In this document: in pieces, positions 25,743 through 59,961 of the stretch
Layout: every line of letters begins with the position of its first letter
How positions within the stretch are numbered: position 1 is the first letter of the stretch
Source of the DNA: Malania oleifera
Taxonomy: Eukaryota > Streptophyta > Magnoliopsida > Santalales > Ximeniaceae
Direction of reading: 5' to 3'
Assembly: GCF_029873635.1 (NCBI RefSeq)
Contig: NC_080422.1
Location: 5,002,001-5,066,000 of the forward strand
Length of the DNA stretch: 64,000 nucleotides
Notes under the pieces: model-generated
What the model saw: only the letters and a program-made list of their open reading frames with translations
Databases searched by the model: none
Told to the model about the DNA's origin: nothing
Made by a program: the position numbers and the translations under genes

Positions 25743-27669
25743 ACGTTGTAGTAGTCCCCAGTTTCTTGTTGGTATTTCATGTATATGTACTCAGTGTACG
25801 AGTTTGTGAATGAGAGATGACAAATTTCGAGGACAAAATTTTTGTAAGGAGGGGAGATTGTAAGAACCCAAACCATGAAAACTGGGTTTAAATAAATAAG
25901 AGAGGGGCAAATTGGGAAATTGGTAGATTTCGTCGACGAGGTCAGATTTCGTCGAAAAGGCCTTTGTTCTTCTCGTTGCCAAAATTCAGAGACTCATCGA
26001 CGAGGAGAAGCCGAGGAGTCTCGAAAAAACCGGCTATCTCAGATTCGTCAACGAGGCCATCGATTCATCGATGAAGTCAGTGAAAGATTCGTCGACGAAG
26101 GCACCATTTCGTCAACGAATTCTCCCAGGTCAAAGGGCTATAAAAGGAAATTTTCATTACTTCTTCATTAAGTAACTTCAAAGATATATCTCTCTCTCTC
26201 TAAAACTCTCCCTACACTCCTTCTCTCTAGATTTCTTCGCCGATCGTTGATGGAATCAAAAATTTGAAGTTATCATGAGGATCGTGGAAGGATTCTCTAC
26301 GATTTTTATGGATCAGAATCTCTTTTCGAAGATTTTTGGGTTTCGGCGAAAAATCGAGGTAAGGCTCGATTTTCAATTCTGATCTGGTAGTTTTGTAGGT
26401 AATGGTTTTGTGAACATATTTTGTAATGTGATTTGTAGGTTTTGGAACTCGGTTCGTTGTTTAGGGGCCTTAGAGTTCGGGATTTACCATTCGAGGAAAA
26501 GGTAAGGGGAAACTATGTTATATTGGTTATTTTTGAAATCGGACTCGATGAAATTGTGGTTCATGGCCTTGTGTGTGTTTTGGCTACTCATTTGGGGGGA
26601 TCTAACAGGAAAAACTATGGGTTTTTCATTATTACAGTTTTGGGAAAAAGGGGGCGACAGGCTGCATCCCTGGTTTTGTTGAAAACTGTGGGTATATGTT
26701 GATTTATACTGTGATATTGAGATGGTCGTGCCTTGACTTGTTTAAACTGTATTTGTTTGGAAAACCATGATTTAGATTACCAAATGGGTGTGGTTTGTTT
26801 GGTTATATAAGCATGCATATGTTGTATTTTGGTGAAATAGGAACGGGTTCCGAATTGTTCCAAGTTTGAAAATACGGCCTTTGCCGAAGAGTACGCAATA
26901 CCACTAGATTGGCCGGCTTTCGAGCCGAAGGGTGTACGAACATCAGATCTGCACCGGTTCAATGTTGATGCAATGCCAGGTTACCGGAGGCACCGACATT
27001 TGCCGAAGGGTGTGAAATACCACTAGACTGCTGGCATTGGCTGAAGGATGTGAAATACCACCAGATCACCAGTTTTTACCGAAGGGTATGAAATACCACT
27101 AGATAGTCCGGCTTCAAACCGAAGGGTGTGACAACACCAGATTGTATTGCTTGGTTTGTGAAAATACTGGAACTGTGTTGATTGTTTTGACTATTGATTC
27201 ATGCATGTTAGTGTATCATGATAACACTCAAATGCCACACACCGATATAACATGTATTCTTCCTTACTGAGAGGTGTCTCACCCTTGCTGTACGTACATT
27301 TTTACAGGTCCTTTAGGTAACCGGAACTAGCGTCCTAGTGTTGGGAGCATAGTGGCCGGTGTACCGCATTTAGCGCTAGGTAAGTGCTAGGACTGTAGTT
27401 TTGGTGGGTTGCCGTTTTGGGATGTGTTGAGCACCTGTTGGTACTTTTTGATAGAGCGTTGTGTCTGCTCTTGTATATGGTACTGCATATGTATGTATGG
27501 TTTTTTTGCTGTGTATATGATTGTGTTTGGATGTGTTTAGGGTGCCTGGGAACCCCACGGGGTCGGACCCTCATCCTTTGTACTATATCTGTGATGATTT
27601 GTATGATACAGGGACAGGTTAGGTTACATTTTCACCCCTGGGTCCCATTTCGGGGTTCAGGGCATAACA
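25743..27669 (+). mobile_element. Ty3/gypsy family A: 3' tail and LTR
   Basis: A short non-coding tail (25743-25858) ends in the polypurine tract AAGGAGGGGAGAT and is followed by an LTR, 25859-27669 (1811 bp), starting TGTAAGAACCC and ending GGCATAACA. Near the LTR start lies an array of TTCGTCGACGAA-type palindromes (25926-26120). An approximately 50-bp tandem array built on CGAAGGGTGTGAAATACCAC lies at 26875-27145, and the TGAGA-N4-TCTCA motif at about 27270. Everything 5' of the tail is missing. It is a fossil 3' end. Confidence 0.75.
26875..27145 (+). repeat. Tandem array in LTR A
   Basis: About five degenerate units containing GCCGAAGGGTGTGAAATACC ACTAGAT-type phrases (written here in two pieces), with unit length near 50-60 bp. 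It occupies the same relative position in the LTR as the unrelated arrays of other LTRs in this window. Confidence 0.7.
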
Positions 27670-29426: not shown

Positions 29427-32400
29427 TGTAACGACCCAAAAAATAAAATTATAAAAGAAAATGAGAAAAATATATTTTTGACCGAACCAGGAGAAAACTG
29501 GCAATGGTTTTCTGAAGGAGTTAGAAAATCGGCGACGGTTTTGGAAAGTTAAACGCGGCCTGGTAAAGGTAAAACGGTAAATTAAGGGGCTAGTTAATAG
29601 AAAACTGGCAATGGTTTTCTGGCCAGTGCTGAAAGTTATAAAGAATCGAAAGCTTCATTTTTAAAACAAAATCAAATTCTATCTCTTTCATCTCTCAAAC
29701 TCACGAACCTCTCTCACTTCTCTCTACAATTTCTGCTCCGTTAAACCTCGTTTCAACGATCAGGAACCACCACTGGGTTCTTGGGAGGATTCTCTATAAC
29801 GTAGGCGGAGCAGAATTTCAGTTTAGGGTTTTAGGGTACCATCCCAAAACTGAGGTAAGGGTGTTATTTGAGTATTTATGTAGTGACCTGAAGAATAATA
29901 ACATTTTAATAATAAAAGGGAGAGAAAATAAATACAGAAGCAAAAGGAGGCCATAGAGTTCGTCGACGAACACAGGGTCTCGTCGACGAAGGTCTTCAGA
30001 ATTTCGTCGACGAACACAGGGCTTTGTCGACGAGAAAATACCGAGAGGGGTTCTGAGGCAGCCTGAATTTCATCCACGAATACAGGGTCTCGTCGATGAA
30101 ATTTGTGAAGAACTCTTTGACGAAGAACGGGCTCGTCGACGAAATCCCCTGGTTTATATATATACGGAATCTTGGAATTATTTCATTTTTAAGAAATCTC
30201 TCTCTCTCCTCTCTCTCTCTCTATGACTCTCTTTCCCTTCTCTCTTCGTTTCCGACCCCACCAATCACCGGATTGACGATCCGAAGCTACCACGACGCTC
30301 CTGATGGAATTCTCTACAAGTTTGCCGGAGCGGATCGTCAAGAAAATGAAGTTGGATTTCATCCCAAATTCAGGGTAAGGTCTTTTATCTAGTTTTTGGC
30401 CTTATGATAGTTATAAGAAATGACGTAGGCGATGAAATACTGATGTTTTGTTCTGGGGGATTGCTTTTTCAGGATGTTGGATTAGGAATCCTGCGGGTAT
30501 AGAGCCAGATTTTTATAGGGGCTTTTCAAAGTTGAGGTAAAGGAAATATGCTATGCTAGGAATTTTTTTAAAGTTATTAGAGAATTTATAAACATATATT
30601 CATATCAGTTTATTATATAGTTTATACAGAATATGAGTTAAATGCTTGTGTGGACTGAGTAGATTTTCATGAGATAAAGAATTTATATAGTCTTGTGATG
30701 TTTCATACTATACTGAATACACAGTTATTGACAGTACATACAATTTACATAATTTTTGCAGTATATGGGTTTACACAGAATATATAAATATAGATTTATA
30801 TTCACAGAGAAATGTACATGCTTATACAGCTTTTATATGAATGGTTTCATGAAACAGATATATACATATATCCATATACATGTATACAGATACTCATAAT
30901 AGTATATATATATATATATATACAGTGTTATAGCATGCCACATTTTCCTATTACCATAACATACAGAACATACAGACAGAGTACATATTTAAAATACATA
31001 GATAGATATACAAAGGTAACATCAAGATGCTACAGACACAGTACACAGAAAGATAGAGTTATGGTAATTTTGGAAACATGATGAAAACGGTAACAGAGTA
31101 TATATGTATATATGTATATGGTATCAGATCCCTGAGGAAAGATACACAGATAGATACAGATTATAGAGCATGGTACCGTTGCTAGATACAGATAGAGTGC
31201 AACCACATATCTCGAATAGTATGTGGGTGCCGTTAGCCGTGCTCGGAGAGTATGCAGCTCCCCAATACACTAGGTTGAGGGGGCCAATTTGACGAGGTAG
31301 TAGCCAGTCCCAAGCTTAGGAGAGGATGCAGTTTGGCCGGGCTAAGGTAGTGTAAAGTATGATGACTTATCTGGAGGGCCGACCAAATAGAGTCCCGCCT
31401 ACGGGCTGCACAACCCTGTCATGAGGGGTCAAATCATGACGTACAGAGTCCCAGGGAATAAATACAGTTATATCTATATGTATACAGTTTTACAGTATAT
31501 GATGAGTATAGTATGATATTATCAGTATGAAAAGTAGAAAATACGGACAATACAGTACATTTTAAATTGAGAAAGAAAGATATGTTTTATAAAATATTTA
31601 TTGCATTTCAGATCAGTTGCTATTTTTAAGTATTCTTAACTTAGTTGTCACACACTAGCAATAGCATATTTCCACTTACTGAGCATTGACTCACCCCATT
31701 ACTTTAACATTTTTCAGGTGAGCTAGTGAGGCGAGCAGATCAGGCTCGCGAGTAGAGTGTAGCTCAGATCACCCTGGTTATAGGGTGAGTTTTTGTCAGA
31801 GTTGTATATCTTTTTGAGTAGATGATACTGGAGGGGCATTTTGTATGGTCTGTATATTCTAAAATCTGGTATTGTACAGTTTATGTATAAATGGTTTTAT
31901 GATTTGTGTTTCCGCTGCGTAGGAATGTTTATTGTATATATATATTTAAAAAAAAATGATGAAAAATGATAAGAATTTTGAGGTCGTTACAATTTATGTG
32001 TTGTTTATCTGAATTATGGGATGCATAGGCCTAGAAATGTAAATATACATATAGTTTTGGGGTTGAACTAAGGAATTAGGAATTTGTGAAATACAGAGTT
32101 ATGGTGTGAATGTTGCAAGCAGAAGTTAGAGTTTCGGTGGGCATTTTTCAGAAAATAGGGTAAGGATAATAATGCTTGTCTGGATTAATATTTTACAGAT
32201 AAACAAGAATATGTGGGTTTGTAGAGATATGTGAATATTATAGTTATTCTAGAAAATTTAGTTGATTGAGAGGGATATATTCATATGTGTGTAATTTTAG
32301 GATTTGGAATTATGAATGCCGCAGAGGTGTGAGTTAGAAAATTAGTGAACAAGTTTAGGTAGTCAGGTAAGGGGAATACATGTTATGCCAGCTTTATTAG

Positions 32401-34249: not shown

Positions 34250-35208
34250 GTAGCCAGTATTCGCAACCAATCTATGTTCACAAATAAATTGTATCCATGA
34301 CCAGCCAATATTCACAAACAGTCAGTTTTTATTACTAAACAATATTCACCAGAGCCAGTATTCGCAACCAGTTAAATTATGAAAATTATATTCATGCCAC
34401 ACAATTTTTCCCATATATAATATATATCAAAAATCAGTATTTTCCAAATGCCTAACTGTTTAGAAAATCATACCTAAGTATATAAATTTGTATAATTAAA
34501 TTTAACCGTTTCAAATTTAGTAAAACTTGTTATAATTAATTCCCCTTACCTGATTCCTGAAAAGCGTGCTAAAATTCTAACTACGTCCGAGGCGTTCAAA
34601 ACTCCAAACCCTGAAATTACATTATCCTCAATAAAATTAACTCAAACCTAGTATAAAAATCATTTACTACCTTTCCTAGGCTGGCATACTACAAATACAC
34701 ACATAAATCCTAAAATATCCCATTTACCTTGATTTTGGGATGGTGCCCCCAAACCCCAAATCAGTAATGTGATTCAATTAAATTGTAGAGAATCTCTTCG
34801 GGATCATCGTGGCAGCTTCTGATTGTCGAAACGGGGTAAAACGGAGCCGGATCGTAGGAAAGAAGGAGGGAGGGCCAAATGTAGAGAGAGAAAATGAGAG
34901 AGGGTGATTTTCTTGTTGGAATTCTGATCTCAGCGTATTTATAGACGGTTGACCGCATGGCTTCGTCGACGAAGCCGTGAATTCGTCGATGAATCTCAAA
35001 AATATCTAAAACCTCTCTCAGTAAATCTTCATCGATGAGACACGTGTCTTCTTCGACGGGCCAAAGAAGGATGTTCGTCGATGAATCCCCGCTGACCCCC
35101 TTCTAAAAATCCTTTTCCTTTTTCCTTTTTTCTTTTCCCTTTTTCCTTTATTTATTTCCCTTTTCTTTTATTTATTTTTATTTTATTTTCCGAGTTCGGA
35201 TTACTACA
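34250..35208 (-). repeat. Partial gypsy LTR D, minus orientation
   Basis: Read on the minus strand it starts TGTAGTAATCCGAACTCGG at 35208. It carries TTCGTCGACGAA and related palindromes (34960-35085), a CT-rich leader with ATTTTGGGATGG / GGTAAATGG, and a second GGTAAGGGG site (about 34545). It breaks off at the hAT-like element. About half of an LTR of this type is present. No target duplication can be tested because the other end is lost. Confidence 0.65.
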
Positions 35209-40048: not shown

Positions 40049-40122
<74 letters not shown>

Positions 40123-43100: not shown

Positions 43101-46100
43101 TAATATGGATTATAGTTAGAATTAGTAAACTCTGGTATTATGTTATATGGAGATTATGATCATGTTTTTCGCTGCGTAACAGTATAACGTACCGGACCCG
43201 GGTTTAAGGGTTCGGGGCGTTTCAACAAACCTGTCAGTAACATTGACAAATTTGTTCCCCATGTATGACTCCTTAAGAATGCCTGTAAGCTAAACAAATT
43301 CTTTCTCCATGCAGGCACAAAAAACAAACAATTGCTTAATTCACTGTCCTCCTAGCATTTGTCTTTATAACTACTCCAACCCCCATTTTGCTGTGTCATT
43401 GTCTATGTAATCAAACAAAAAATAAGATGGATGAAAAGGTTGGTCAGAAGGAAAAGTGCAGTAGTCTTAACTCCAGCTTCATCACCTCAGCTGGCTACAA
43501 AAACCGCCATTGTCACCAATCACAGACCTAGAAATTTTATTCAGTGGGATCAAAATACGAACACAGACAAATAAAAGAAGCATATAAAAAAATGAAAATA
43601 AAAATTAAGGATACTGAGTATTTTTGCTAAGATATTAAGATAAGATCAAAAGCTTTCATCATTATTTTTAAATGCATTTACATAAAAGGCCTTTTTTTCC
43701 TTGCTGTCTTGATGTGGGGGAAAACAGTATTTTCAGTGGGGACAACTATTAAAATTATTTAGGAACCCCCCCCCCCCCCCGCCTTTTCGAGGTTCCAGCG
43801 GAGCCACTTTCACCCAGAGCTATCAACCTTGGCCTGCTGCTGATTGTCACCCATCTTCATTAACAACTCATTTCTCTCCCAAAACCCTCTCAATGACAAC
43901 TATCAACAACCCCTTGAATTATGACACCTACACAAGCTACCTCTTGAGCACCCTCTGAGGCCAAGGCAGAACAAGGAAAATAAAAAAGTGAGTCTCCTCG
44001 AGCATCACACAGCCAGTTCACTAAAGATGGAATACAAGGGTTGAACAAAACATAAGTTGGGTCACTCGCTGTTCTCTATTGCTTGCAGACAGCGCCTTGC
44101 TTCCATGTCAACAAAAAAGGGTCAAGTGATAAATGAAAAAGGGAGCCTAAACTAACTGCAGTGTACTAGAAGTTCAACATTGCAAGAATTAAAAAAGTTT
44201 AGAATTGACTTACAAGAAGTTAAAGTTTGGAATAAATTTGAAATTTTGGTTGAGTCCAAGTGTTTTTTTTTTCCAATTAAGAAAGTAATGTTAATGTTGT
44301 GAAAAACAAATTGCACAACGGAATATATTTAGGATCAAACACACAATGCAACACTCAATGATTAATATACAGAACAATTCACAACCACAGCAATATGTAT
44401 GAAAGCAATAGAAACAACATAAGGAATTATGTGGTTCGGCAATGCCTACATCCACGAGAGCAAACAGCAACGATTCACTATCTTCTTGTACAAAGTACAT
44501 GAACAATGCATCAACCCTCACTACAACCATATACAACCATCTTACTCTAAATACATCACAAATGACATATAAATAGAGTTCCAGGAGGTTTTCCCTCCAA
44601 ACCCCAACCATATTAACATCCCCTTATTCAAATTTGAAATCTGTGTTAGGTTCCCCGAGCCAAACCGTCAACGATTTCAGACAAAATGAAAATTCATTTA
44701 GACACTACTCCAAACCATCGACGGTTTGAACCTTATCATCGATAGCTTCCCCCGCTGCTGCTTGATTTTCTTCATGTTCTCCCTTTGTGCATGCTTTCCA
44801 CTCGGTGTGTGAGCCACATATCACAACAATCTTCACCTTGGTGAACATACGCCCCTTAGAAGAAACAGAAAACATGAACCCACAGCTCCACCTTGACCTT
44901 GGGACGTTAGGTTGGGACCACCTTCCGTCTAACAACTGGAGACAAACACCAAGTCCAAGCAACGCTTGAACTTGCACATGGCACCTTCGGCTTCTGTCAT
45001 GAACCCCAATTCAGTTGTAGATGTTACACCCGAAGACTTCACCCTGGGCTTCCAACAAGGGCTTTCCACAACAGTAAACACAAAACATGTTGTAAGCTTT
45101 CTATCACCAAAGCCTCCTGTATAGTCTTCAACAAATCTCACAACTGACGGACCACTTTGTTGCCTGCCGAAACACCCCATTGCACCAGCATGAGGAACCT
45201 TTGACATATCCTAGACTTCATTGTCCGTCCTTGGGTACCGAGTGGTAGACATTTTACTTTTAACTCTCCACAGAACCCCCTGAGACGGCAAACAAAGTCT
45301 CCTGGTAGTTCTGTCCACAAAGCCACCCTGAGATAACACTAATCTCTCTACAACTTTGTCCATGCGAATCTTCAAACCAAGACCCTTCTTGGCCGTACCC
45401 AAAACCTTCATGTCAAAACCTTTCAACAGAGTTCCCAACTGATTAGCCTTAGTCAAAGCCTTCCCGGCCAATAACATATCATTCACACACAATAGACACA
45501 TCACTCCCTTACATCTTATCACCCCCTTCCATCCTGGAAGTTCCACCAACTCCCACACCTAGTTCTTATGCAATACTTCCATTTCCTCCACCATAGCACT
45601 CATCCACCTATTTTTCCCTTTGCTGTGCACCACATCTTGAAAAATAGTAGGAATCTTTCTGCTGGTAGTAATGAATGCATAAAGCACCAGAATGTCAAAT
45701 TTATACCTGAATGGTGGTCAGATAGTGCACCTGAGCCCACCGTGATACTGCTGGTCTCTCGAGCTGAAACTCTCTGCAATATGAACAATGTCATCTCTGC
45801 CCTGAGTCTGTAGCTTCACCTGCATCACATGCCCATTTATACTGTGATATTATTGACCCGAGATAGAACCCCTGCATTTCTACTTTGAGTATCTAACTCC
45901 ACCTGAATTACATGTTTGTTGCTGTTGCAGTTTTCTGGAATTTGTTTTTCTTCCTTTACCTTAGTATGCTGCCCCATGGCTTTCTCACCAAAAATCATGT
46001 CTCCACTAATTACCATCTTGTTTGCCATAGGATCACCCAACTTGAACTCACCTTTCTTATACCCCACAAAGATGTACTATCCAAACATAACACCAAGCCT

Positions 46101-49100
46101 AAATCCCACCTCACTAGAAACGTGCACCTGTGGACATCCACTCAAACCCGAGTAGTCTAACGCAAAACCTGCCCACAATTCTTCTTGAATTGAATTAGCG
46201 TACTCAGTCCCAATGTTTGACCAGAGAATCTCTCTCTCGGTCTAGTTTTCCACCTCAACCACAAGTTAAACTAGGTAAACACCTCAAACTTGTGCCACAT
46301 GAGATACACCAAGATCTTTCATGATAAACCCATGAAATACATATGTCTACTCCATGATGCTATCATCACCAGTCCCCAAACATTTAAATACATGTAGTCA
46401 CCCATATGCCCTAATCGCATATGCCATGGAACATTTGACTCAAATTCTACAGCTGTAGCTCCACCTACAACTGTGATACCTTGCAGTGCATAGATATTTC
46501 CCGCTATCTTTTATCTTTTCATCACCATCAAGTTGCCTTCACACACTTTCATTTCCCCACTTTTAGACTTGTAACTATATTCATTACAATCTAAAGTGTC
46601 TAATGAAATAACATTTTTCCTCAGATCCGGTATATGTCTTACATCACATAAGGTTCGCACAACACCTTCATACATTTTGATTTTTACATTTCCAATACCA
46701 ATTATTTTGCATGAAATATCATTTCCCATCAAAACTGAACCAGTATTAAGTGACCTATAGGTGTTAAACCATATTCTATTTGCTGTCATGTGATAAGAGC
46801 ATTCGGAATCTAGGATCCAAGAATCCGTGAGGCAGTCTAAACCCGATGAAACATATAGCATATCACCATCACTGCTCCCTGAGTCTCCTTCCACTACATT
46901 TGCAGATTTTGATGGACCCTACTGATTTTCAGCATTCCGTTTCTTCCACTCTGGACATTCCGATCTTATGTGCCCAATTTTATGTCTTTCTTCTTCCCGG
47001 ACTGCAATCGAGATCCACTCCGAGACTTGCGTCTCCCATGTTCCCGATTACTCTTCACAATAAGCCCTTCACCACGTGAAACTTCATCGCTGGTCATTTT
47101 TCTTTGATGAAAACTGAGCAATGCGCTTGTCATTTCTTCCAAATTCAAGCTTTCTTTGCCCCATGTCAGAGTGGTAACCAAATTCTTATACGTGTGAAAC
47201 GCAGGTAGGGAATTCAATAGCATCACTCCCTTGTCTTCCTCCTCGAACTTTACATCAACAATTTGATTGAATGCGTTGATACGTTGGTTCAAATCCAAAC
47301 CTTTTACCATCTTAAATCATTCACAATATGATTGAATGCGTTGATACGTTGGTTCAAATCCGAACCTTTTACCATCTTAAGTCAATACAACCTTTGCTTA
47401 AGAAATAATTTGTTCAACAAAGACTTAGAAATATACCGGTTTCCAATTTTTGCCAAACTACTGCCGGAGAATTCTCATCCATGACGTGATACAGCACATC
47501 ATCAGCCAAACAAAGTCAAATGGTTGATACTGCCTTTACCAACTTGCTTCATCCATGTCTTTCAGTTTAATTCTGTATAAGGCCTTCACCATGCCTTGCT
47601 GCACTAAGAGTTCCATCAAACTTGATAACGTCAAATTTCGCAGATGAAGATCCAGAGATCATTACAACAATGCTTTGATACCAATTTGTTGTGAAAAACG
47701 AATTGCACGGCGGAATATATTTAGGATCAAACACACAATGCATCACTTAATGATAAATATATAGAACAATCCACAACCACAACAATATGTATGAAAGTAA
47801 TAGAAACCGTAAGGACCCGAATCCGAAAAATAAAAAAATAAAAAAATAAAAGAAACGAGAAATAAAGGAAAAGAAAAGAAAAAGAAGGAAAGACGGTTTG
47901 GCAGGATCAAATTGTCGACGGTTTTCTGGAGCCCAGGAAAACCGTCAGTTTTCCTCTGAGCAGGCTTACTTAAGTAGTAAGCAATGTATTTTTATTTCAT
48001 AACTTATATTCCTTTCTCTTTCTAAATTAGGTCTTTTGGACTCTCTCTCTACTCTCACTCTCTCATGTAGCTCTCTCTCCCCTAAACTCACCCAGAGTCC
48101 GTCCTCGCTCCCCGATCATCTCTCCCTCCTCTCTCGGCTTGCCGGCTCACTTTCGACGACGGGTTCAAAAGCTAGGATTTTTGTTTTTCAGAATGTAAAC
48201 AACTTATATTCAGGAACAGATAAGGGGATTAGGTTATGTCAGGTTTTTTTTATCAAAATTGAATCGATTAAACTGTTTGTATGTATGTATTTTCATGGAA
48301 TCAATGGTTAGTTCGAAATCCAAACGTTCAAAACCGAGTCTATAAATATGGGAATATCCTACGATGATTTTTGAACGACTCGAATGGTTGAAAGCTTGGC
48401 TTTGTTGTTACACACATGTCTTGAGAAAAACCGAAAGGTATGCGGTGATCATCTTAGTTTTCCTATAAAATCTATATGTATGTATATATATAAGTGTGTT
48501 GTGAGTAGTTTAAAAGGGTGAGATGATCATACCTGATTTTTATCAAAATTCACTTATTATTTTAATGTGTCCAGTTGGTTTATTTGATTATTATTTAATA
48601 TTCAAAACGTGTGGCATGAGAATAATCCATTTTTGTTTCATTGCATTTTGGAATTTGAGCATTGTGGTAAGAATATACGGTGATATAGTGAACTATACTA
48701 GTTTATAAATGAAAATGGATATGTGATATGATGGCTGTGTGTCAGGTTTTGATATGATGGCTGTGTGCCAGGTTTTGATATAACGGATGTGTGCCGGGTT
48801 TTGATACGACGGCTAAGTGCAGAGTTTTGATATGACGGCTGTGTGTTGGGTTTTGATATGACAGGTTTTGCATTGAATTACGAAATGAGTTATATAACAA
48901 TTTTTATTACTTAAATTGCATTATATGATTTAAGAACCCTGAGGACTAGATATGTTAAGGGCATGGTACCGTAGCCAGTATGTGATATAGTGCAACCACA
49001 CTATTCTGGATAGAAGTGTTGGTAATGAAAATTCGATTTGGCCACGGAAGGATTGTGTATCCCCTTGGAGTCTAGACCAGGCTGGGTAGGCAAATCAGAC

Positions 49101-51330
49101 TTGCAGACATAAGATTTGACTTAGTCTGGTGGTAGGTCATCCAGATTTCGGACCAGTCTTCAAACCACACAACCCTATCATGGGGGTCTATACATGATGA
49201 TGTGTTTGTCCAAAAGGTGTTTCTTCTACGCATATGTGTGAATTTATGTAACCCATGTTAAATATGTATTGGATTGATTTATATTATGGAAATAAATGCA
49301 TATTTTTAACTATATAGGTGTGAGTACGGTTCCCAAATGTTATTATGTTTAAAGAAAGTGATGGATGTTTTCTGCATATACTAAAACTCATGTTGACCAC
49401 ACCCTGATATTAACATTTTCCTTCTTACTGAGAGGTGTCTCACCCCAATGATCATTTGACTTTTCAGGAGATACCAGAGACCGTGCTTAGCCAGCTAGGA
49501 AGCTGGGTTTAGATTGTTTTGTTATAGTAAGTGGGTTGTATGGATTGATATTAGTCTTCTTTCGTTTCTGTTAGATTGTAATATTAATAGCTGGAGTCAC
49601 TTATGTATGGTGGTAATTTGAACTTTGGTAATACATTTCAGGATGTTCAAATTATTTCTGCTACTTTTATATGACGATTGTGGTATCAGGGATTGTAGAA
49701 ATTTTCAAATAACAACCTAGACCCCACTTTCGGGTTTGGGGGCATTACAGAAACAACACATAGAATTACGTGATTCGACAATGCCTGCATCCACGGGAGC
49801 AAACGACAAAGATTTGCTATCTTCTTGTACAAAGTACATGAACAATACATCAACCCTCTGTACAACCATATACAACCATCTTACTCTAAATACATCACAA
49901 ATGACATATAAATAGAGTTCCCGAAGGTTTTCCCTCCAAACCCCAACCATATTAATGTCCCCTATTCAAATTTGAAATCTGCGTTGGGTTCCCCAAGCCA
50001 AACCGTCAACGATTTCAGACAAAATGAAAATTCATTCAAACACTGCACCAAAACAATTAGAGTCTTACCGCCGATGGTTTCCCCTGCTACTGTTTGATTT
50101 CCTTCATGCTTTCCCTTTGTGCATGCTTTCCACGCAGTACACAGTTAATATTTCAAGTTTAACTAGGACTCAGGATTTATTACATATGGGAATAATTTAA
50201 TGTTAATATTTCAAGTTTAGTGAGGAATCGGGATTTTATCACATATGGGAATAATTTTTTCTTTGTTTAAAAATGTTCTAGAAATTTTGGATGATAATAA
50301 TGAATCCCATATGCTTGGTTTTGGAATGTTTCTTTATGGTTCAGGGGTTTTGTAACACATATTGCCACACACCAGCACATGCGCACACACAAGTTTTGGA
50401 TTGTTTCTTTATGGTTTAGGGGGTTTGTAAGACATATTGCTATATACCAGCACACGCACAAACATACAAGAGATAGGAAATTATAAAGATTGATTGAATT
50501 TCAAATTTAGTGAAAAAATTGTATGTTTGTGTGTGTGGAGAGAGGCAGGGGAGCTGCATAGAACCCCTGGGCATTTTCCATGTATCATACTCATTCATCT
50601 TCATCTTCTCCCCTCGAGAAATTCTTACATGTCTCAATTTCATCATCATCCTCACACATTTGATGGGTCACACCATTAAAAACGTATGGGTCCACCAAAC
50701 ATATGGTGGTGATGTGCTCGGTATACTGGACACATGCAAGAATTCATCCTCCTCCTCTCCTCCTGCAGTAACCCAACCTATATTTTCTTACTCTATATCC
50801 CCTTTCTGAGTTCCACCCCCCTCTCTCCCTGCAAACCCCACTAGGGCATTCCCGCATTAAGATTCATTGCGTCATTATATAAAACCAGTGGAATATTAGC
50901 AACAGTACTTAACTATAGTATCATGGCATCATTCAATCTCTGAAAAAAATATTAAAATCCATGAGAGCAACACAAGTATTTCAAGACAGAGGCAAAAGCA
51001 AAGCATTGTAGGGACGATTTCAAAATAGATTTAAGGATTTCAATCAAGTTATATCAAGACAATAAGCTTACAAGCTCAAAACATGTATACACATCCAGAA
51101 ACTCAAAAAAGCACAACTATTTAAACAAAGTCACAAATCTATTCGAAACTTATTTGTCATGAATCGATACTAACTGCATCTAGAAAAATAAAAGAGCACA
51201 AGTTCATACATGAAACAAAAACCCAGATGAAAAAAAAGAAAAAAGAAGCGGCGGTGGAGGTATCAAATTGGCATAAACCTGAGGGTTTGGGATGCCTCTG
51301 AGGAAACTTGATTCTGGGTATTCTCTTCAT
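37327..51330 (-). CDS. KGD4: KGD4/MRPS36-like subunit of the 2-oxoglutarate dehydrogenase complex (3 exons, 72 aa)
   Basis: Three tiny exons join in phase: 51279-51330 (MKRIPRIKFPQRHPKPS plus one base), 38784-38932, and 37327-37344 (LGGCC and stop). All junctions are GT-AG. The N-terminal RIKFPQRHPKP and the C-terminal PKRTPVSDKEIEAIL-LGG correspond to the conserved RFPDRR..PKP and R..VS.EE.E.I..GG segments of human MRPS36 as I recall them. That protein, once thought ribosomal, is now known as KGD4, the adaptor that holds the E3 component in the mitochondrial 2-oxoglutarate dehydrogenase complex of the TCA cycle. Plant relatives are similarly short. Intron 1 is 12.3 kb because two LTR elements lie in it; without them it would be about 3.9 kb. 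Two in-frame ATGs lie upstream (51348, adding MGAAQA; 51408), so the true start could be earlier. No frame damage is seen. Confidence 0.82.
37460..37483. repeat. TG microsatellite
   Basis: A run of TG dinucleotides in intron 2 of the KGD4-like gene. A TC run follows at about 37687-37706. Confidence 0.9.
38286..38450. mobile_element. Foldback MITE, KGD4-like intron 2 (copy 1)
   Basis: The arms pair: CTTGGATTTGGATTTGTGTG on the left and CAAATCCAAATCCAAAG on the right, with an outer AATCCATGCTCTCAAATGCA. It is the same family as 38520-38690 but more diverged. It is non-coding, with target duplication uncertain. Confidence 0.6.
38520..38690. mobile_element. Foldback MITE, KGD4-like intron 2 (copy 2)
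   Basis: The left arm GTGTTTGGGAGCATGGAATT followed by CATGGATTTGGATTTG mirrors the right arm CAAATCCAAATCCAAGTC followed by GAAATCCAAGCTCCTAAATG. The element is about 170 bp, AT-rich and non-coding. The nearby first copy shows that this family amplified locally or recurrently. Confidence 0.65.
38784..38932 (-). CDS. KGD4: KGD4-like exon 2
   Basis: A 149-base exon following CCTTGCAG, coding VSGAQTQPASAAGDVN through PVSDKEIEAIL and ending ATTCTG|GTATGC. The first part is a Ser/Ala/Gln-rich flexible linker and the last 15 residues are the conserved C-terminal helix region. It carries most of the protein. Confidence 0.82.
40026..40120. repeat. Compound microsatellite (TG)n(GA)n
   Basis: TG/CG repeats pass without a gap into a pure GA run of about 25 units. 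It lies in intron 1 of the KGD4-like gene. On the gene's own strand it reads (TC)n(CA)n. Confidence 0.95.
40639..43224 (+). mobile_element. Gypsy solo LTR (2586 bp), target duplication ACAAA, inside KGD4-like intron 1
   Basis: It starts TGTAAAGACCCGG and ends GGGGCGTTTCA, with ACAAA immediately before (40634-40638) and after (43225-43229). It is antisense to the KGD4-like gene. It contains GAA-rich and poly-C tracts near the 5' part, GGTAAGGG donor-like sites (about 41530), and the nine-unit minisatellite. A block around 42390-42520 is shared with the Tekay-like LTR (CCTGAGGGCTTGCTGAGTAA; GTATGGGCGGGTA). The hairpin CTTACTGAGATGTGTCTCACCC lies at about 42839. Confidence 0.9.
41946..42172 (+). 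repeat. Nine-copy minisatellite in the solo LTR
   Basis: Nine units of ACAGCTGAAAGATGCTGGGTAAA, 22-29 bp each. Some units are extended by ATGTAAA or ATATAAA. Most units begin with the palindrome CAGCTG. Confidence 0.9.
43225..44294. other. Host intron sequence between two retroelements
   Basis: This is KGD4-like intron 1 sequence with no gene of its own. It has a run of 15 C at 43766-43780 and the GTTAA target site at 44290-44294. Nothing else is recognised. Confidence 0.5.
47808..49749 (+). mobile_element. Gypsy solo LTR F (1942 bp), target duplication GAAAC
   Basis: It is bounded by GAAAC at 47803-47807 and 49750-49754 inside the copia 5' LTR, starts next to GTAAGGACCCG and ends GGGGGCATTACA. 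It holds GTCGACGGTTTT motifs (about 47893-47960), a CT-rich leader, a tandem array (48722-48872), the GGCATGGTACCGTAGC block (48960) and CTTACTGAGAGGTGTCTCACCCC (49427) followed by TTTTCAGG. It is antisense to the KGD4-like gene. Confidence 0.9.
48722..48872 (+). repeat. Five-unit tandem array in LTR F
   Basis: Units of about 29 bp of the form GGCTGTGTGCCAGGTTTTGA followed by TATGAT. They lie just upstream of the GGTACCGT block, the same position as arrays in the other LTRs. Confidence 0.85.
50149..50465. repeat. Two local tandem duplications in KGD4-like intron 1
   Basis: A unit of about 60 bp with TTAATATTTCAAGTTTA and ACATATGGGAATAATTT occurs twice (about 50145-50204 and 50203-50262). A second unit with TTTCTTTATGGTT and ACATATTGC....CCAGCACA occurs twice at about 50326-50395 and 50395-50465. 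Both are diverged direct repeats in non-coding DNA. Confidence 0.7.
51279..51330 (-). CDS. KGD4: KGD4-like exon 1
   Basis: Seventeen codons plus one base, ending CCCTCAG|GTTTATG. The conserved RIKFPQRHPKP motif identifies it. The sequence upstream to about 51480 is GC-rich and host-like, so the 5' UTR and possibly the core promoter survive there. An ATG at 51348 in the same frame would add six residues. Confidence 0.8.
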
Positions 51331-51479
51331 CGCCTGCGCTGCACCCATCTCTCTCTCTGTGTGAAAACGATGGTCGGAAAGTTGAAGGTGGTGTGGGGCT
51401 GGTTGCATTTAAACAGAGATCCGGAGGGGCCGGCTGCCGCGGCGATCCTGTCTGACGACCTGGTCCAAAAAAGGGCAGT
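51331..51479 (-). promoter_or_regulatory. Short surviving 5' region of the KGD4-like gene
   Basis: Only about 150 bp of host-like, GC-richer sequence lies between the KGD4-like start codon and the 5' LTR of the plus-strand copia element. It includes a CT/GA-rich leader (51349-51362), two upstream in-frame ATGs and a TTTAAAT patch (about 51404) that could act as a TATA-like box. Sequence that once lay further upstream is now beyond 62.6 kb. Confidence 0.5.
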
Positions 51480-51534
51480 ATATCCGAAGATATGCCCCCA
51501 CATGAATGATATAGTCTCACATAATAGGTTAAAA

Positions 51535-51618
<84 letters not shown>

Positions 51619-52073: not shown

Positions 52074-52400
52074 TGTGGTATCAAAGCCAAGTTGAAATTA
52101 TCATGGACTTCCTTTAAAAGAAAGATCATTTATAGTAATATTTTTTCGATCTGATTACGGTCTTATAAGTAAAGTTTATGGTTATGTTGGTTTTTTTGGA
52201 TTCAAACTGAAAATATATGTGTTATTTGTAGGATTTTTGGGATAATAGTAGACTGAAAATTATGTTTCTGAAATACTGAGCTTGCTGTTCGAATGGTTTT
52301 GTTGGACTCTCAAAAAATCGTTGACAAATTGAGATACCGAGAGCAGATAAACTGAGTTCCAGAAAACCGTCGACGGTTTGTCTGAAGCAGCTTGAAATTG

Positions 52401-54753
52401 TGTTGACCTTATGGGTCATACCCTGTTTTGATTATGACAAATACTCAGGTATTTAATGACTGCCGAGTTGATGTGCATGTTTATCTAGATAGTATCCTAT
52501 GATGGCACTCGGAGACCCAGAGGAAAACGAAAACTTTGAAGACCCTAGATATAACTTATTTGTTGTAATTTATATTTGGGTCTGTAATATTTAAGTCAGA
52601 AAGGTCTGTAATAGTAAATAGGGATTGGTTTGTAATAAGCTCACACACATCACATGTATGATTTATTACGTAAGCTCAAACAAACCGTAAATGAGAAATG
52701 ACCTTAGAAAGACCTTAGGGTGTAGTCGACCGATACTGAACTTTTTCGGTGTCTTCAAATTGGACCCCAAATGACCCTAGGACACACACATTTACACATA
52801 TGTTTGTTAGGCACTTGAATAGGGCTTATATGTTTCGAAACGGGACCGAAATACACACATGGTGCATTTTTTGTTGACCAGCCAAGCTAGTTCAAAAAGC
52901 CCTGGTCGACCGAAACCTCCCTGGGTCAAAGTTTGACCATATGGTCGACCGAACCAGGTAGTTCAAAAAGCCCTGGTCGACCGAAACCTCCCCGGGTCAA
53001 AAGTTTGACCACCTGGTCAACCGAACCAGGTTGTTCAAAGATCCCTGGTCGACTGAAACCCTCCTTGGTCAACATTTGACCATCTAGTCGACCGAGCACT
53101 TTTGTACTCCAACTACCTGGTCGACCGGAGGGTCCTCGGGAAAATTTCTAGCAGTTTGGTCGACCAAACCAGCCAGTTCAAAATGGCCTGGTCGACTGAA
53201 CCTCGAAAAATTGAGAAATCTTCTTCTCTTGGTCTACCAAAACCTTAGTTCAAAAGTCCCCTGGTAGACCGAACCATATGAGACTTGGTCGATCGAACTT
53301 GTTCTGGTTAACTAGACCTCTCGGGTTGCCCTGATTTTTTTACCGCAGTTAATATTTTTTAAACAGGGTTAAAATGCTTTAAACATCATTAAACTTTTCT
53401 AATAATACCCAATAGGTCCCCAACGGTCATATTTTCTCCTATGCCTATATATATGAGTTCATTTGAGAAAATTAGGGGTGATTAGCCACTTTGATTAGGG
53501 AAGAATTCTCTGAAAAATAAAAACCCTATACTACTCATTTTCTTACTCAAATCACTCATACTTGCCTTCTATTTTTGCCTACATCATTTGTAAGTTGATT
53601 GAGTGTTTTTCTTAAATAGGTTTGCTCTCCTTGTGCTACTTGTTTGACACGATTTTCTTGAGAGCCAAACATAAGGATTCTTAGGGAGCTTTTGCTAATA
53701 AGCCTATCCTAAGAAGACTTGCTTAAGCTTCTAAGTATTGCATTTGTGTTGCAATTTCTTAGGAAGCTTATATTTGTCTTTGGGTTGCAAAATCATTTTC
53801 AAAACATACTAAAATATCTTGTGTGATTTATATTGATATATTTGTGAAAAGATATTTGTGTTTGTGATAGTGATCTTTGTGGCAATATTCATCAACTCAC
53901 ATATCCTTTGCTGAATACAAAGATTGAATGTCTTTTACAAACCAAATATACATATTACTGAAGCATCATATGATTGAGGAAACTTGCTCATTGAAATATA
54001 CATATTGTCTGGCTAGTATCTTTGTGTGAACTATTATATTGAACATATCTTGTGATACAAAGATTATTTGTTTGACACTCTCACATACGCATTACACTGA
54101 TAGAAAATACTTTGAGAGTTGAACCATCTAGACCACATTGAGTTTACATATTGAATCATATTTGTGGTGTATGCTATTGTTCGCATTTGGGTACATATTG
54201 CTTTACACGAAAGCACAATCACTGTACTATCTGATTATATACACATTTGTTGTATATCCAGGCACGGGCCTGAAGAGGGAGACTAGCCCTAGAATACTCC
54301 CGAATTGGCTTAGACCCAGTTAGGAAAGCTAGGTGCGTCATCCTGTTAAGGCGTATAGGTTGAGGTCAGCCTCGCTAATTGACCTGGTTAAGGTTGAGGT
54401 CAGCCCTGTGTTAATTTGACCTGATTGTAAAGGGTGTCGCTCCACCCTTAAGTGAGCTATTAGTGGAATCCTCTGACTTGCGAGCTAGAGGCAGGGATGT
54501 AGGCACAGTTGACCGAACCCCGATAACATATCGTGTGTCTATTTACATTTCAGCACTTTATATTTACCGCATGTATATGTTATTGTATGAATGATGTGCA
54601 TGATTTAAATTCCACGTATTTTATTTATCAGCACATTTGGAACCGTGTAGAAGGACCCTAGGTTACCAAAACATATTGACTTCTAACTTAACCTAGGAGA
54701 AAAATTAAAATTTCCAATTCATCCCCCCTCTTGGGAATACACCTTTTCTAACA
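52401..54753 (+). mobile_element. SIRE/Maximus-like copia solo LTR (about 2.35 kb)
   Basis: It starts TGTTGACCTTATGGG and ends with ATCCCCCCTCTTGGGAATAC and CTTTTCTAACA; the CCCCCCTCTTGGG phrase before the end is typical of SIRE-type LTRs. It contains a repeat block full of TGGTCGACCGAAC palindromes (52885-53310) and a possible TATATATATGAG box (53445). No internal copia domains are attached. A matching 5-bp target duplication is not evident, so the exact ends are approximate. Confidence 0.65.
52885..53310 (+). repeat. GGTCGACC palindrome repeat block
   Basis: Roughly six degenerate 60-75 bp units with CTGGTCGACCGAAACC, TTTGACCA and AGTTCAAAA phrases. Each has one or two copies of the 8-bp palindrome GGTCGACC or a one-base variant. 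Confidence 0.85.
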
Positions 54754-57700
54754 AACCGCTGACGGTTTTTCCCTATATAGTGATATTAAAGTAGGGCTGT
54801 TGAATGATATGCATACAAATAATTTTATTATAACTTGATTAATAATGGAACACTCACATGTTATGCATGCATAAGTTTGAGAATTTTACATGAAAGTAAG
54901 TTAGTAAAATTCTTATACTGGGGAATTGATTATCTACTGTAAATTATGGATAAATCTTTGCTGAGTAAGGTATCAATTAATGTTTCTATTATGGTTAGCG
55001 TGTTGTCACAAAAGTGATCTTATTGAGAAAAGTTGTAAACGTTGATTGAAATATAATCTTGCAAAAATTATAACAGAATGGTTATTTGAATATTATGACT
55101 GGCCCAAAGGTGCACCAACTTTCAAATAATCATTGAGTTAATTAGGATAATTGAAAGAATCGTAGTGAGATTGGGATGTCTGCCTAGTCAAACTTTATAA
55201 AGATTATCAATTATGCCTGGGTGAATGAAAATCACTATTAAAAGTAAATGTAAAGTGTTAGTATATTGCATAAGTTGATCCAAAGATTGAACGCAATTTA
55301 CTAATGAAACGTCTTAAACTCAAAGCATTAATGTGTGTGATCATGTTGTGTTATTGCAATGTTTGCTCCTGTTTTACTTCATTCGCTAGCTTCTTCTGTT
55401 CCGATCTTCAATGGGACAAATTTCTCTGATTGGAATGAGGAGATTTAGTTTCACCTTGGTGTTCAAGATCTGGACTTAACCCTGTAAATGGATAAACCAG
55501 CTGCTATTATTGAATCCAACAATTTGGAGCAGCGAGCTTTGTATAAGTCATGGGAAATGTCGAACAGATTAAGTATGATATTTATGTGGATGTGTATAGC
55601 AAATAACATTAAATCAACACTCCCTCAACTAGATAATGCAAAGGAATATCTTAAGGGAGTGGAGGATAGATTTCGTTCAGCTGATAAGTCCCTTGCAAGA
55701 AGGTTAATGGTTAAACTGACGACAATGAAATTTGATCGTAGTAAAGGAATAAATGAACATGTTCTTGATATGACTAATCTGGCCGCTAAACTTAATACCT
55801 TGGGAATGAATGTTGATGAAAGCTTCCTTGTTCATTTTATTCTGAATTCTCTGCCTCCTCAGTACAGGCCTTTTCAGATTCACAATAACATAATTAAAGA
55901 AAAAATGGAATGTGAATGAATTGGCAAGCATGTTGATTCATGAAGAGGCAAGACTTAAACAACAAGGAAAACATTCAATTAATGTCATGAGTTATGCAGT
56001 TGGAAGTAAGGGAAAGAAATCAAAGAAAGTTTTAAAGAGAAATCCATTGAAGGTGGCAAGTACTTCGTATGGTGGTGAGGCTCGCAAGAAGGAACATTAT
56101 GGTCCCAAGTGTTACTTTTGTCGTGGCTATGGGCATTTAAAGAAAAGTTTCCCGAAATGTAAAGCCTGGTTCGAAAAGAAAGGTAAGCTTTTAGCTTATG
56201 TATGTTTCAAATCAAACATGACACAAGTTCCTTCTAACACTTGGTAGATTGACTCTGGTTTTACTATTCATGTTTCCAATTCGATGCAGGGATACCTTAC
56301 GATCCAGAGCATAAAGGAAAATGAACACATGATAGTCTTGGGGAATGGATATCAAATGCCTATTATGGGTGTTGGAACTGTTCGATTGTATCTAGAATCG
56401 GGTCATTGTTTAGACTTGTTTGATACTTTTTATGTTCTAAATATTTCTAGGAACTTAATTTCTATGTCCAGATTAGACAATGATGGTTATGGTTTGTACT
56501 TTGAACATAAAGGTTTTCGTATTATGAAAGATAACTTATGTGTTGGCTCTGGTGTTTTGTATAAGGGGTTGTATAAACTTAATCTTAATGAAAAGTTTGT
56601 TGAAACACTCCTCACTATGCATCATAATGTTGGAACTAATCGTAATAGAATTAATGAAAATTCTTCTTTCTTGTGGCATAAAAGACTAGGTCATATATCC
56701 AGGGAAAGAATAGAGAGATTAGTAAAGGATGTGGTTCTCACAAACCTTGATTTTATTGATTTTGATGTATGTATTGATTGCATTAAAGGAAAGCAAACTT
56801 AACATACAAAGAAAGGAACTACAAAAAGTGGAAATCTACTAGAAATTGTTCATACTAATATATATGGACCTTTTGACTCACCATATTTAGGTGGAGAAAA
56901 GTATTTTATCACCTTTATTAATGATTTTTCATGGTATGACTATATTTATTTGTTGCATGAAAAGTCTCAGGCAATAGATGTCTTAAAGACATATGTTGCT
57001 GAAGTAGAGCAACTATTAGATAGGAAGGTGAAAATCATTAGATCTGATTAGGGTGGTGAGTATTATGGTAGGTATGATGGGATTAAACAATGTCTAGAAC
57101 CATTTGCTAAATTCCTAGAACAGCATGGTATTTGTGCTCAGTACACAACGCCTAGTACGCCTCAGCAAAATGGAGTGGCTGAAAGGTGAAATCATACTCT
57201 TATGGAAATGGTTAGGAGTATGTTGAGTAATTTCTCAGTACCCATTTCATTATAGATGAAAGCCCTTAAAACAGCAGTGTATGTGCTCAATTGGGTTCCT
57301 AGTAAGGTAGTTCAGAAAACTTCTTTTGAATTGTGGATGGGAAGAAAACAGAGTTTAAGGCACTTTCATGTTTGGGGTTGTTTAGCAGAGATTAGAGTCT
57401 ATAATCCAAATGAAAGTAAATTGGTTTCTAGGACTATAAGTGGGTACTTTATTGGATACCCAAAAAAGTCTAAAGGGTATAGGTTTTACTGTCCTAACCA
57501 TAGTATGAGAATAGTAGAAACCAATAATGCAAAGTTCCTTGAAAATGGTGAAATCAGTGGGAGTGATATATCACGAAATGTGGTCATTAAAGAAATTCAG
57601 GTTCCTATATTGATATCTAGACCTTTAACCTACATTGTTGTTCCTTTAGTTGTTGAAAGGCATGATAGCATTGAATAGCAATCTATTAATGTATCACTTC

Positions 57701-57778
57701 GTAATGAAAATGTCACCATTGAGCCAATTGTAGAACAATCACAAGAAATAGTATTAAGGAGATCTCAAAGATCAAGGA

Positions 57779-59961
57779 TGTAGAGACCCAAATCCGGAAG
57801 ATAAATAAAGAAAATAGAAGGGAAATTAAAAATGATAAAACAGAAGAGCTCGTCGACGAGGCTCCCTTTCTCGTTGACAAAGTTTCTTCTATGGCTTGGC
57901 GATGAAACGCCGAGACCCATCGGCGAGAAGATACCGAGGGATTTTTGGAAGTTCTGAAATCTCAGTCTCGTTGAAGAGGTCACACTCTCAGCAACAAATG
58001 CCCTTCTTCGGCTAGTCGATGAGAACTTCAACTCATTGACGAGGCTAGTCGAGTCAACCTAATTATAAATAGAATATTTATTTCTTCCTTGCTAAGTTAT
58101 CTCAATTCTCTTTATCTCTCTCTAGAACATGAACCAACCCTCTCTCTCTCTCTCTCTCTCTCTCTAAGATTTCGTGATGTCTGTTGTCGGAATCAACAAT
58201 CCGACGTCGCTACGTGGATTTACGTGGATCAGATCTTCGTTTTGAGGATTTTTGGTTTTTTTTCCTAAAATCGAGGTAAGGATCTGATTTCGTTTTTGGT
58301 TCAGTAGATATGTAGTAGTTGGGATTATAGTGAAGTATTGTTCTTCGGTTTTTAAGTTTCGGGGATCTCGTGTCGTTGTTTTGGATTGATTTGTTCGTGT
58401 TTCAATTTTTGGGTTTAGGTAAGGGGATTTGTTTACATCAGTATTTTTTGAAAACGAAACCAGAGGATATGTAGCTTATGTTGATATGTACTTGTTGATT
58501 GCTTATTTCCAAAGTTTTACCGGGTATAAATGCCGATTCTTACGGTTTTTCATGATTTTGCAGTTTTGGCAAAAATGAGATTTTTGGCATAGGATTTCCA
58601 AATTTCTTAAAATTACTTTATTTGCACTAAAACTAAAGTAGGAGAGGCTTGAAACTCTTAAATTGCAGCATAAATGATATTTTACGAACCCGTTTATATA
58701 AAATGTATATTTGATCAAATAAGTGTGACATATGATATGAATTGAATCTATACTAATTTGAGATGTATGTACGTGAACTATGGGGACTAAGGTTCCAAGT
58801 GGTTATCAGAAAATGAAGAAAACAAGTGTCGGTCAGATACCGTGCCAAGTATGAGAAAAGGGTAAAACTGAGAGGTTACGAGCCAGTTTTTACCACAGTA
58901 TGAATGAAAGTATGCATGAATGAGATTGTGAAAATACTGGAATTGTACAAGTTATTATGTTTTAATGTAAATTATATATATGATATTGGGACCGCAACTT
59001 GTTACACAAAGCATAAGAAGCTCAATAGTAAACGAAGCCTTAAAAAACTTATATTATGTAGGCTCGGTGCCGTTGCCAAAACAGAGGTACTGTACAACCA
59101 GACACAGTTATTTTTCAGTGTGGGTATCTAGTAGTCGACTTGGTAAGAAGGGCCACTGGTCAAAAGGGATTCGGGTGGTGATGGCCAAGTCGGACTACAG
59201 TATGTTATGATGTCTGACAATGCCTACATGGACAGGGCTCGATCAGTGCTTTCTTATCACACAACCCTTGCTACGGGGAGTTACTGGCATAATTATGATA
59301 GTTTCAAGATGGATGGTGTTCCATATACATGATTTAAAAGCTTTAATGGGCAAAGTCACAGGTTTGAGTAATGGGCGGAGGGATTGTACAGTGTATGGGC
59401 CTGTACTCTATCCTAACCTCAGGAACTCTCACTTGTAATGATGTTGAGTTATATATTATCAGGAATTTATATATGTACTATATATATTACAATATTGAGA
59501 ATGTGCAATCTATGTAACTGTTTTCAAACAAAAATATAATTGTACAGTCACACACTGATATAATATCTTCCTTCTTACTGAGAATTGTCTCACCCCAATC
59601 ATACAACCTTTGTTTCAGGAGTTACAGGAAATCATTCCTAGTATTCTAATAATAGAAAGACTTTGGAGCATAGAGTCTGGTTAGCTGACGTAAATTTTGT
59701 ATGATTTCTGGATTTTTAACCAGGATGGTGTGTTGGGAATGCAATACAATTTATGTTTTACGTACGAATGAATGTATGTAAGGAACAATTAGATACTCTG
59801 GTACGTATAATAGAATCCATATGAATGCTTTTGTTTTTCGCATTATAAGAAAGTATAGATCAGTATGATATACCCGTATGTCCATGTTTAGGGCGGGTAC
59901 TTGACGTACGTTATCTAATTGTACAGGTTATGTATGTATAGTAGCACTCTGGGGCCGTACA
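57779..59961 (+). mobile_element. Gypsy solo LTR H (2183 bp), target duplication AAGGA/AAGAA
   Basis: It starts TGTAGAGACCC and ends GGGGCCGTACA. The flanks are AAGGA (57774-57778) and AAGAA (59962-59966), a 5-bp duplication with one difference. It carries CTCGTCGACGAG-type palindromes (57848-58050), a TC microsatellite (58138-58166), TCGAGGTAAGG (58272), the GGTGCCGTTGCC block (59066) and CTTACTGAGAATTGTCTCACCCC (59574) followed by TTTCAGG. It is inserted in the copia element between integrase and reverse transcriptase. Confidence 0.88.

Follow-up and report, generated by a model that had tools for sequence, protein, structure and literature searches.

Arrays of GTCGAC-centred palindromes upstream of TATA-like boxes in gypsy and copia long terminal repeats of Malania oleifera

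In a 64,000-nucleotide stretch of the Malania oleifera genome (NCBI RefSeq assembly GCF_029873635.1, contig NC_080422.1, positions 5,002,001 to 5,066,000; hereafter the window), rows of palindromes centred on GTCGAC occupy the U3 region of several long terminal repeats (LTRs), upstream of a TATA-like box. With a GC content of 0.29–0.47 in 2-kb steps, the window is AT-rich, and it is filled by nested LTR retrotransposons, the LTRs of which are designated here by letters (A to F, H, and the pair Z) or by copia lineage (Tork-like and SIRE-like). The arrays are real: that of the SIRE-like LTR is of a known kind, and those of the gypsy and Tork-like LTRs extend that kind. Judged from the sequence, they are probably U3 cis-regulatory modules, in which the rows of dyads most likely recruit a host DNA-binding protein acting as a dimer.

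Excess and position of the palindromes

GTCGAC occurs 23 times in the window against 3.28 expected, a count reached by none of 100 dinucleotide shuffles, and its observed/expected ratio of 6.9 is the highest among palindromic 6-mers with at least three occurrences. Nineteen of the 23 copies lie inside the U3 of eight LTR promoter regions; the other four, against 2.89 expected there, are found in the LTR pair Z (17098 and 24796), far downstream in LTR H (59134), and in the leader of a copia element (52369). Three flank classes surround the centre, TCG-TCGA-CGA in the chromovirus-like gypsy LTRs, CCG-TCGA-CGG in the Tork-like copia LTRs, and CGG-TCGA-CCG in the SIRE copia LTR. These classes, named in an original prediction made from the sequence, are all in excess at up to two mismatches: YTCGTCGACGAR has 29 matches in the window against 1.91 expected (25 of them within A, C, D, and H), AACCGTCGACGGTT has 7 against 0.02, and YTGGTCGACCRA has 38 against 7.92, counting both strands and including some TTCG-class sites, as matches to one flank class are partly counted for another. 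The motif tests are partly circular because the motifs were derived from the same arrays; the GTCGAC count is less so. At up to three mismatches, the promoters of A, C, D, and H hold 8, 8, 5, and 7 sites, respectively, numbers equalled by none of 500 dinucleotide shuffles of each. Chance or plain CpG richness was rejected as the source of the arrays, and the sites lie where the original prediction had placed them. Its statement that the core stays while the flanks differ held in part, as exact GTCGAC is present in 2 of 8 sites in A, 5 of 8 in C, 1 of 5 in D, and 1 of 7 in H, and is absent from the Tork-like LTR.

Ten site clusters were found, in A, B, C, D, F, H, the SIRE-like LTR, the two Tork-like LTR copies, and the copia leader, and the leader cluster alone lies outside U3. 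The location of the LTR arrays in U3, upstream of TATA-like boxes that were picked by pattern and by eye, is a positional fact that the original prediction did not contain. It bears directly on the packaging proposal raised there, considered here as an RNA packaging or dimerisation signal. Packaging signals are not usual in U3. A site pair within the copia leader (52365 and 54754) would suit such a role, but nine of the ten clusters are in U3, upstream of a TATA-like box, and a conserved fold was not found in A, C, D, and H. A packaging signal was therefore rejected on the position of the arrays and is extremely unlikely.

The gypsy LTR A (25859..27669, plus strand, reading TGTAAGAACCC...CATAACA, with ends placed by eye) carries eight YTCGTCGACGAR sites at 25929..26119, with centre spacings of 19, 24, 21, 51, 20, 24, and 20 bp, and its TATA box (26138..26147) lies about 25 bp past the last site centre. 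LTR C (29879..31991, plus strand) is apparently solo and is flanked at both ends by the 5-bp duplication ATTTA; its eight sites (29959..30143; spacings of 20, 24, 20, 46, 20, 24, and 19 bp) are separated by spacers that repeat one another, and a TATA-like box (30153..30167) lies about 15–17 bp past the last centre. LTR D, on the minus strand, starts near 35208 and its other end was not delimited; five sites (34962..35085; spacings of 25, 21, 46, and 20 bp) precede a TATA box (34936..34946) about 24 bp past the last centre. LTR H (57779..59961, plus strand), also apparently solo and flanked by AAGGA and AAGAA (four of five bases alike), has seven called sites at 57849..58043 (spacings of 21, 25, 21, 51, 45, and 20 bp), and its TATA box (58062..58072) lies about 26 bp past the last centre. 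LTR A also contains about two copies of a 76-bp unit (26999-27142).

These four arrays share an eight-slot layout, (20-24-20)-(46 to 51)-(20-24-20)-TATA. No site was called in slot 6 of H or in slots 1, 7, and 8 of D, where slots 2–6 are occupied; D lacks slots 7 and 8, yet the distance to the TATA box is kept. Slot 3 of A and slots 3 and 4 of H are weak calls with three mismatches each. In A, C, and H, the LTR start and the first site are 76–86 bp apart. The order of the spacings is shared (exact permutation P of 0.0095 for A–C, 0.0056 for A–H, 0.0083 for C–H, 0.042 for A–D, and 0.083 for C–D), and in a MAFFT alignment the four promoters align collinearly, with a common CCGAG-like box between slots 4 and 5.

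Descent and conservation of the gypsy arrays

Two further gypsy LTRs carry AACCG-type sites. The 5' part of LTR B (29427..29878, plus strand), which is interrupted by C and was absent from the list in the original prediction, holds three diverged sites (two to four mismatches) centred at about 29503, 29534, and 29610, the last about 27 bp before a TATA box at 29635. LTR F (47808..49749, plus strand) is apparently solo, has the duplication GAAAC, lies inside a Tork-like LTR, and has C as its first base (CGTAAGG). Its cluster (47893..47960, plus strand) comprises one called site (47910-47923, two mismatches) and two half or broken sites recognised by eye; a weak TATA-like sequence follows at 48003, with about 86 bp between it and the called site and about 55 bp to a broken one. 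About five tandem copies of TGATATGACGGCTGTGTGCCAGGTTT (48724-48862) lie downstream of the promoter of F.

The starts of A, B, C, D, F, and H are TGTA-R-like, with an ACC or similar motif (F reads CGTA). Outside the arrays, blastn joins A to F (84% over 51 bp, E = 2e-8), F to H (80% over 81 bp, E = 1e-13), and B to D (69% over 173 bp, E = 1e-10), with further links for A–H, C–H, C–F, and C–D, several of these matches lying within a single short box toward the 3' part of the LTRs. A conserved TTACTGAGAGGTGTCTCACCCC-like box, possibly a processing or 3'-end signal, is present at 16344-16416, 27235-27284, 31647-31718, 42793-42860, 49397-49445, and 59549-59595 in the gypsy-type LTRs A, C, E, F, H, and Z, placed in roughly the final quarter of A, C, F, and H; it groups LTR E (start near 40639) and the pair Z with the other gypsy LTRs. 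The coding evidence comes from next to LTR B: one match is to Pfam SH3_Tf2-1 (E = 1e-17), and the piece at 28985-29137 reaches 24.7 bits against Pfam Chromo (E = 2.2e-05), just short of the cut-off of 25.1. The gypsy LTRs may belong to a chromovirus of the Tekay/Del type.

LTR E has a single two-mismatch match at 41062 and, well downstream of its start, about nine tandem AAACAGCTGAAAGATGCTGGGTA copies with CAGCTG palindromes (41946-42166). Both LTRs of Z keep a lone palindrome, ACAGTCGACTGT (17095-17106 and 24793-24804), which is not in a promoter array. Outside the LTRs studied, a 98-bp unit is present as a tandem duplicate with 96% identity (12611-12806).

By their sequence likeness, A, C, D, and H are considered to descend as a single promoter type; B and F are related LTRs with the other flank class. 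Common descent explains the gypsy arrays because the LTRs share homologous segments, the promoters are collinear, and the order of spacings is shared. The argument of the original prediction, that the arrays sit in unrelated families and are poorly explained by simple common descent, thus fails among the gypsy LTRs and may still hold for the Tork-like and SIRE-like copia LTRs, where no homology to them was detected.

Spacers repeat inside the arrays of C and the SIRE-like LTR (the signal was reached by none of 500 shuffles in either), so tandem duplication built or refreshed these two arrays, a conclusion that is supported by the repeats themselves; the signal is weaker in A (4 of 500) and absent from D (69 of 500) and H (260 of 500). 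The arrays may be a passive outcome, that is, inherited tandem duplications that are CpG-rich and functionless and share their spacing by ancestry only. The homologous segments that tie the LTRs together, the mutually repeated spacers of C and the SIRE-like LTR, and the near-equal likeness of sites and spacers between H and D (0.65 and 0.64) agree with such an origin. However, H spacers carry no repeat signal, the A–C and A–D spacers are at chance identity though sites and spacing persist, the non-CpG columns of the sites have changed in only 5 of 112 cells, and the occurrence of the GTCGAC centre in copia LTRs, where no homology was detected, is left unexplained. A purely passive origin is accordingly quite unlikely.

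Site identity between LTRs is 65–78% for all six pairs of A, C, D, and H. The gap-aligned spacers are 0.55–0.64 identical against 0.52–0.60 in shuffled sequence, and those of A–C, A–D, C–D, and H–D do not exceed the shuffles at the 5% level; the contrast between sites and spacers is partly circular because the sites were called by motif likeness. In 28 sites, the ten fixed columns carry 36 substitutions in total: the six CpG columns (168 cells) account for 31 and the remaining four columns for 5. CpG transitions (C-to-T or G-to-A) make up 25 of the 36, a pattern that may be the mark of methylated cytosine decay in the sites of A, C, D, and H. Each gypsy site has three CpGs. The CpG observed/expected ratio is 1.82, 1.74, 2.06, and 1.17 in the arrays of A, C, D, and H, respectively, 0.60–0.77 elsewhere in LTRs A, C, F, and H, and 0.41–0.43 in two other stretches of the window.

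Sites in the copia LTRs and comparison with Sireviruses

The Tork-like element (44290-50138), for which Pol_BBD was the sole domain match in the one open reading frame scanned, takes its name from the original prediction. One LTR carries two AACCGTCGACGGTT-type sites on the minus strand (44663..44726; two and one mismatches), with a TATA-like CTCTATTTATATG (44566-44578) about 92 bp downstream. The second LTR copy (50001..50079, minus strand) has sites at 50001 (two mismatches) and 50066 (three mismatches) and a TATA-like sequence at 49905. A perfect palindrome, TTCAAATTTGAA, is present in both copies (44627-44638 and 49965-49976), near the AACCG-type sites. In the leader of the plus-strand copia element, a perfect AACCGTCGACGGTT (52365..52378, plus strand) ends 22 bp before the SIRE-like LTR, and a second site, AACCGCTGACGGTT (54754..54767, plus strand, two mismatches), lies just past the other end of that LTR and is followed by a TATA-like CCTATATAG at 54772. 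The two leader sites flank the inserted SIRE-like LTR.

No blastn match between the Tork-like or SIRE-like LTRs and the gypsy LTRs was found (same strand, E 0.05; both strands, E 0.001), so the recurrence of a GTCGAC centre across lineages deserves attention; convergence may have occurred between the gypsy and the Tork-like and SIRE-like copia LTRs. If promoter DNA moved over a short range between gypsy and copia elements, by recombination or template switching, it could have spread the AACCG-type sites. CCAGAAAACCGTCGAC is common to the copia leader (52359-52374) and LTR F (the reverse complement of 47914-47929), LTR F itself lies inside a Tork-like LTR, and the score of an extended 26-base palindrome is 22 in the leader, 20 in F, and 20, 19, and 18 in the three B sites, against a maximum of 17 in a single base shuffle of the window. 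The other leader site (17), the broken site of F (16), and a Tork site (16), in contrast, do not exceed that shuffle value; blastn detects no similarity of the Tork-like and SIRE-like LTRs to the gypsy LTRs, and the AACCG-type motif is short enough to arise by selection. Such transfer is decidedly unlikely.

The SIRE-like LTR (52401..54753, plus strand) is solo, and no internal region is seen. Its ends were placed by eye because no target duplication was found at its flanks. Thirteen NTGGTCGACCRA sites (up to three mismatches) form an array at 52870..53296 on the plus strand, with alternating spacings of about 32 and 39 bp (the last 24), a 72-bp tandem unit, and an outlier site at 52722. The common site form, CTGGTCGACCGA, has one half reading ACCG and the other usually CTGG. 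Between GGTCGACC sites at 52923-53081, three GGGTCAAAGTTTGACC-like inverted stretches are seen, which resemble paired W-box cores.

Repeated motifs (RMs) have been described in Sirevirus LTRs by Bousios et al. (2010; PMC2829016), who present them as confined to Sireviruses and missing from classic copia elements, and who report that a common binding factor was not identified. There, as in the arrays here, many palindromes occupy the upper half of the LTR, upstream of the TATA box, and the Vitis RM, CGGTCGACCG, with 10 copies in the LTR, shares the GTCGAC core with the SIRE-like block and differs from the SIRE-like TGGTCGACCG by one base. A CGG-CCG signature is given for 12 of 13 RMs (PMC2829016). 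The SIRE-like LTR agrees with this description in having at least eight palindromes in its upper half (14 sites, centred 328–891 bp into the 2353-bp LTR), a TATA box after the cluster at about mid-LTR (CCTATATATATG, 53444..53455, plus strand), and, near its 3' end, a C-rich integrase signal (CCCCCCTCTTGGG, 54723-54735) 18 bp before the end placed by eye, where about 21 bp is expected. The TATA box lies about 155 bp past the last site, a distance that exceeds the one described as typical in PMC2829016. Judged by the CpG observed/expected ratio, the cluster is not CpG-island-like (0.78 in the array, 0.66 just upstream, and 0.41 downstream in the LTR), and the GC content is 0.42 over 52401-53460; an island is usual and not defining, as Tnd-1 and Sorghum elements have RMs without one (PMC2829016). 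Such Sirevirus arrays, including CGGTCGACCG, are described in PMC2829016, which makes the SIRE-like array a feature of a kind already known. The gypsy LTRs A, C, D, and H fall outside the Sireviruses (Ty1/copia), being similar to LTR B, whose neighbouring pol pieces are of gypsy type. A gypsy array, the eight-slot spacing, and the AACCG- and TTCG-flanked classes are found here and not in the available text of PMC2829016.

In the literature search, arrays of GTCGAC palindromes in gypsy LTRs were not announced in titles or the starts of abstracts among the matches listed. Tandem activator motifs in the U3 of Tnt1-type elements have fewer copies and other sequences than the arrays here. The short repeats in question influence the LTR promoter, as proposed here for the arrays; such motifs of Tnt1-type copia elements are cited in PMC2829016. 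A weak preference for palindromes at the insertion sites of LTR elements has also been described, in a text in whose available part the word "promoter" is unused (PMC6911290). A scan of viral_contigs for two perfect sites returned 40 loci, one of which alone had a GC content below 50% (L030); it was rejected as a plant relative, its sequence appearing bacterial or phage by eye. The conserved LTR box, the reverse transcriptase protein, and the SIRE array gave nothing usable against viral_contigs, and the conserved LTR box had no match in genome_contigs. A search with the reverse transcriptase protein returned eight loci of 3.3–7 kb in bacterial records, which are probably stray eukaryote DNA; none of the eight, which may not include LTRs, has a site cluster.

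Promoter control and RNA-based alternatives

As U3 is carried at the 3' end of the transcript, the palindromes could fold there into hairpins that feed host silencing, making the arrays a source of small RNAs. The array RNAs fold better than shuffled sequence, with z values of -2.01 for A, -3.43 for C, -3.56 for H, -5.99 for the SIRE-like array, and, weakly, -1.46 for D, and in maize Sirevirus LTRs, small-RNA hotspots coincide with the palindrome regions (work cited in PMC5311732 and PMC10760457). The maize palindromes likewise cluster in the cis-regulatory part of the LTR, and their core, CACCGGAC...GTCCGGTG, is unlike the arrays here (Bousios et al. 2016, as given in the available text of PMC5311732 and PMC10760457). 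Self-folding is, however, expected of any palindrome array. The likeliest paired slots differ from LTR to LTR (1-8, 2-7, and 3-4 in A; 4-8, 5-6, and 2-3 in C; 1-2 and 7-8 in H; 2-6 and 4-5 in D), and the covariation term of the consensus fold is unfavourable (+3.12), with a two-sided change in some sequence at 6 of 42 pairs. A conserved RNA fold was rejected on these grounds. Hairpins would also leave the TATA distance unexplained and may be a side effect of the sites and not the reason for them. A hairpin or small-RNA source as the basis of the arrays is improbable; the original prediction had named hairpin and silencing targets, and the predicted pairings are not shared by A, C, D, and H.

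Binding by a dimeric host protein, which the original prediction had also put forward, is the best-fitting reading, given the U3 position, the short TATA distance, the shared spacing, and the dyad consensus; the layout's likeness to the Sirevirus description in the available text of PMC2829016 also counts for it. The argument against descent that accompanied the proposal falls away for the gypsy LTRs A, C, D, and H. One ancestral gypsy promoter array of about eight slots was probably inherited and then diverged in A, C, D, and H, with tandem duplication of a unit building or rebuilding the array in C and the SIRE-like LTR. A dimeric host protein would bind each dyad, and up to eight sites, spaced by about two turns of the helix and upstream of the TATA box, could allow cooperative control of the LTR promoter, presumably activation. 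Since each gypsy site has three CpGs and the changes are mostly CpG transitions, methylation of these CpGs could block binding. To our knowledge, none of the plant factor classes IDD, WRKY, MYB, and DREB offers a convincing match to the sites.

Several observations weigh against binding by a dimeric host protein. The TATA distance is larger in the SIRE-like (about 155 bp), Tork-like (about 92 bp), and F (55–86 bp) LTRs. Spacers of A–H and C–H are above chance (reached by 7 and 5 of 300 shuffles, respectively), the H–D sites and spacers are near-equal in identity, and the conservation of sites over spacers, itself partly circular, is suggestive support and not decisive. Whole-window scans found no TTCG-type cluster in E or Z, the U3 of Z not being fully delimited, and each element family is represented by one or two copies. 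No covariation links the left half of a site to the right (P = 0.59); compensatory dyad covariation was therefore rejected, and dyad symmetry is a property of the consensus. A broader version, in which one host factor or factor family reads GTCGAC dyads and was captured independently by at least three lineages as a shared promoter switch, with CpG methylation gating binding, is doubtful.

The palindromic repeats upstream of the TATA box that were presented as a speciality of Sireviruses occur here in a gypsy lineage whose LTRs have a slot pattern in common, which suggests that dense dyad arrays are perhaps more general in the build of plant LTR promoters. The spacing rule provides a precise signature for searching plant genomes, and the arrays offer a compact target for finding the host protein that drives abundant retrotransposons or marks them for silencing.

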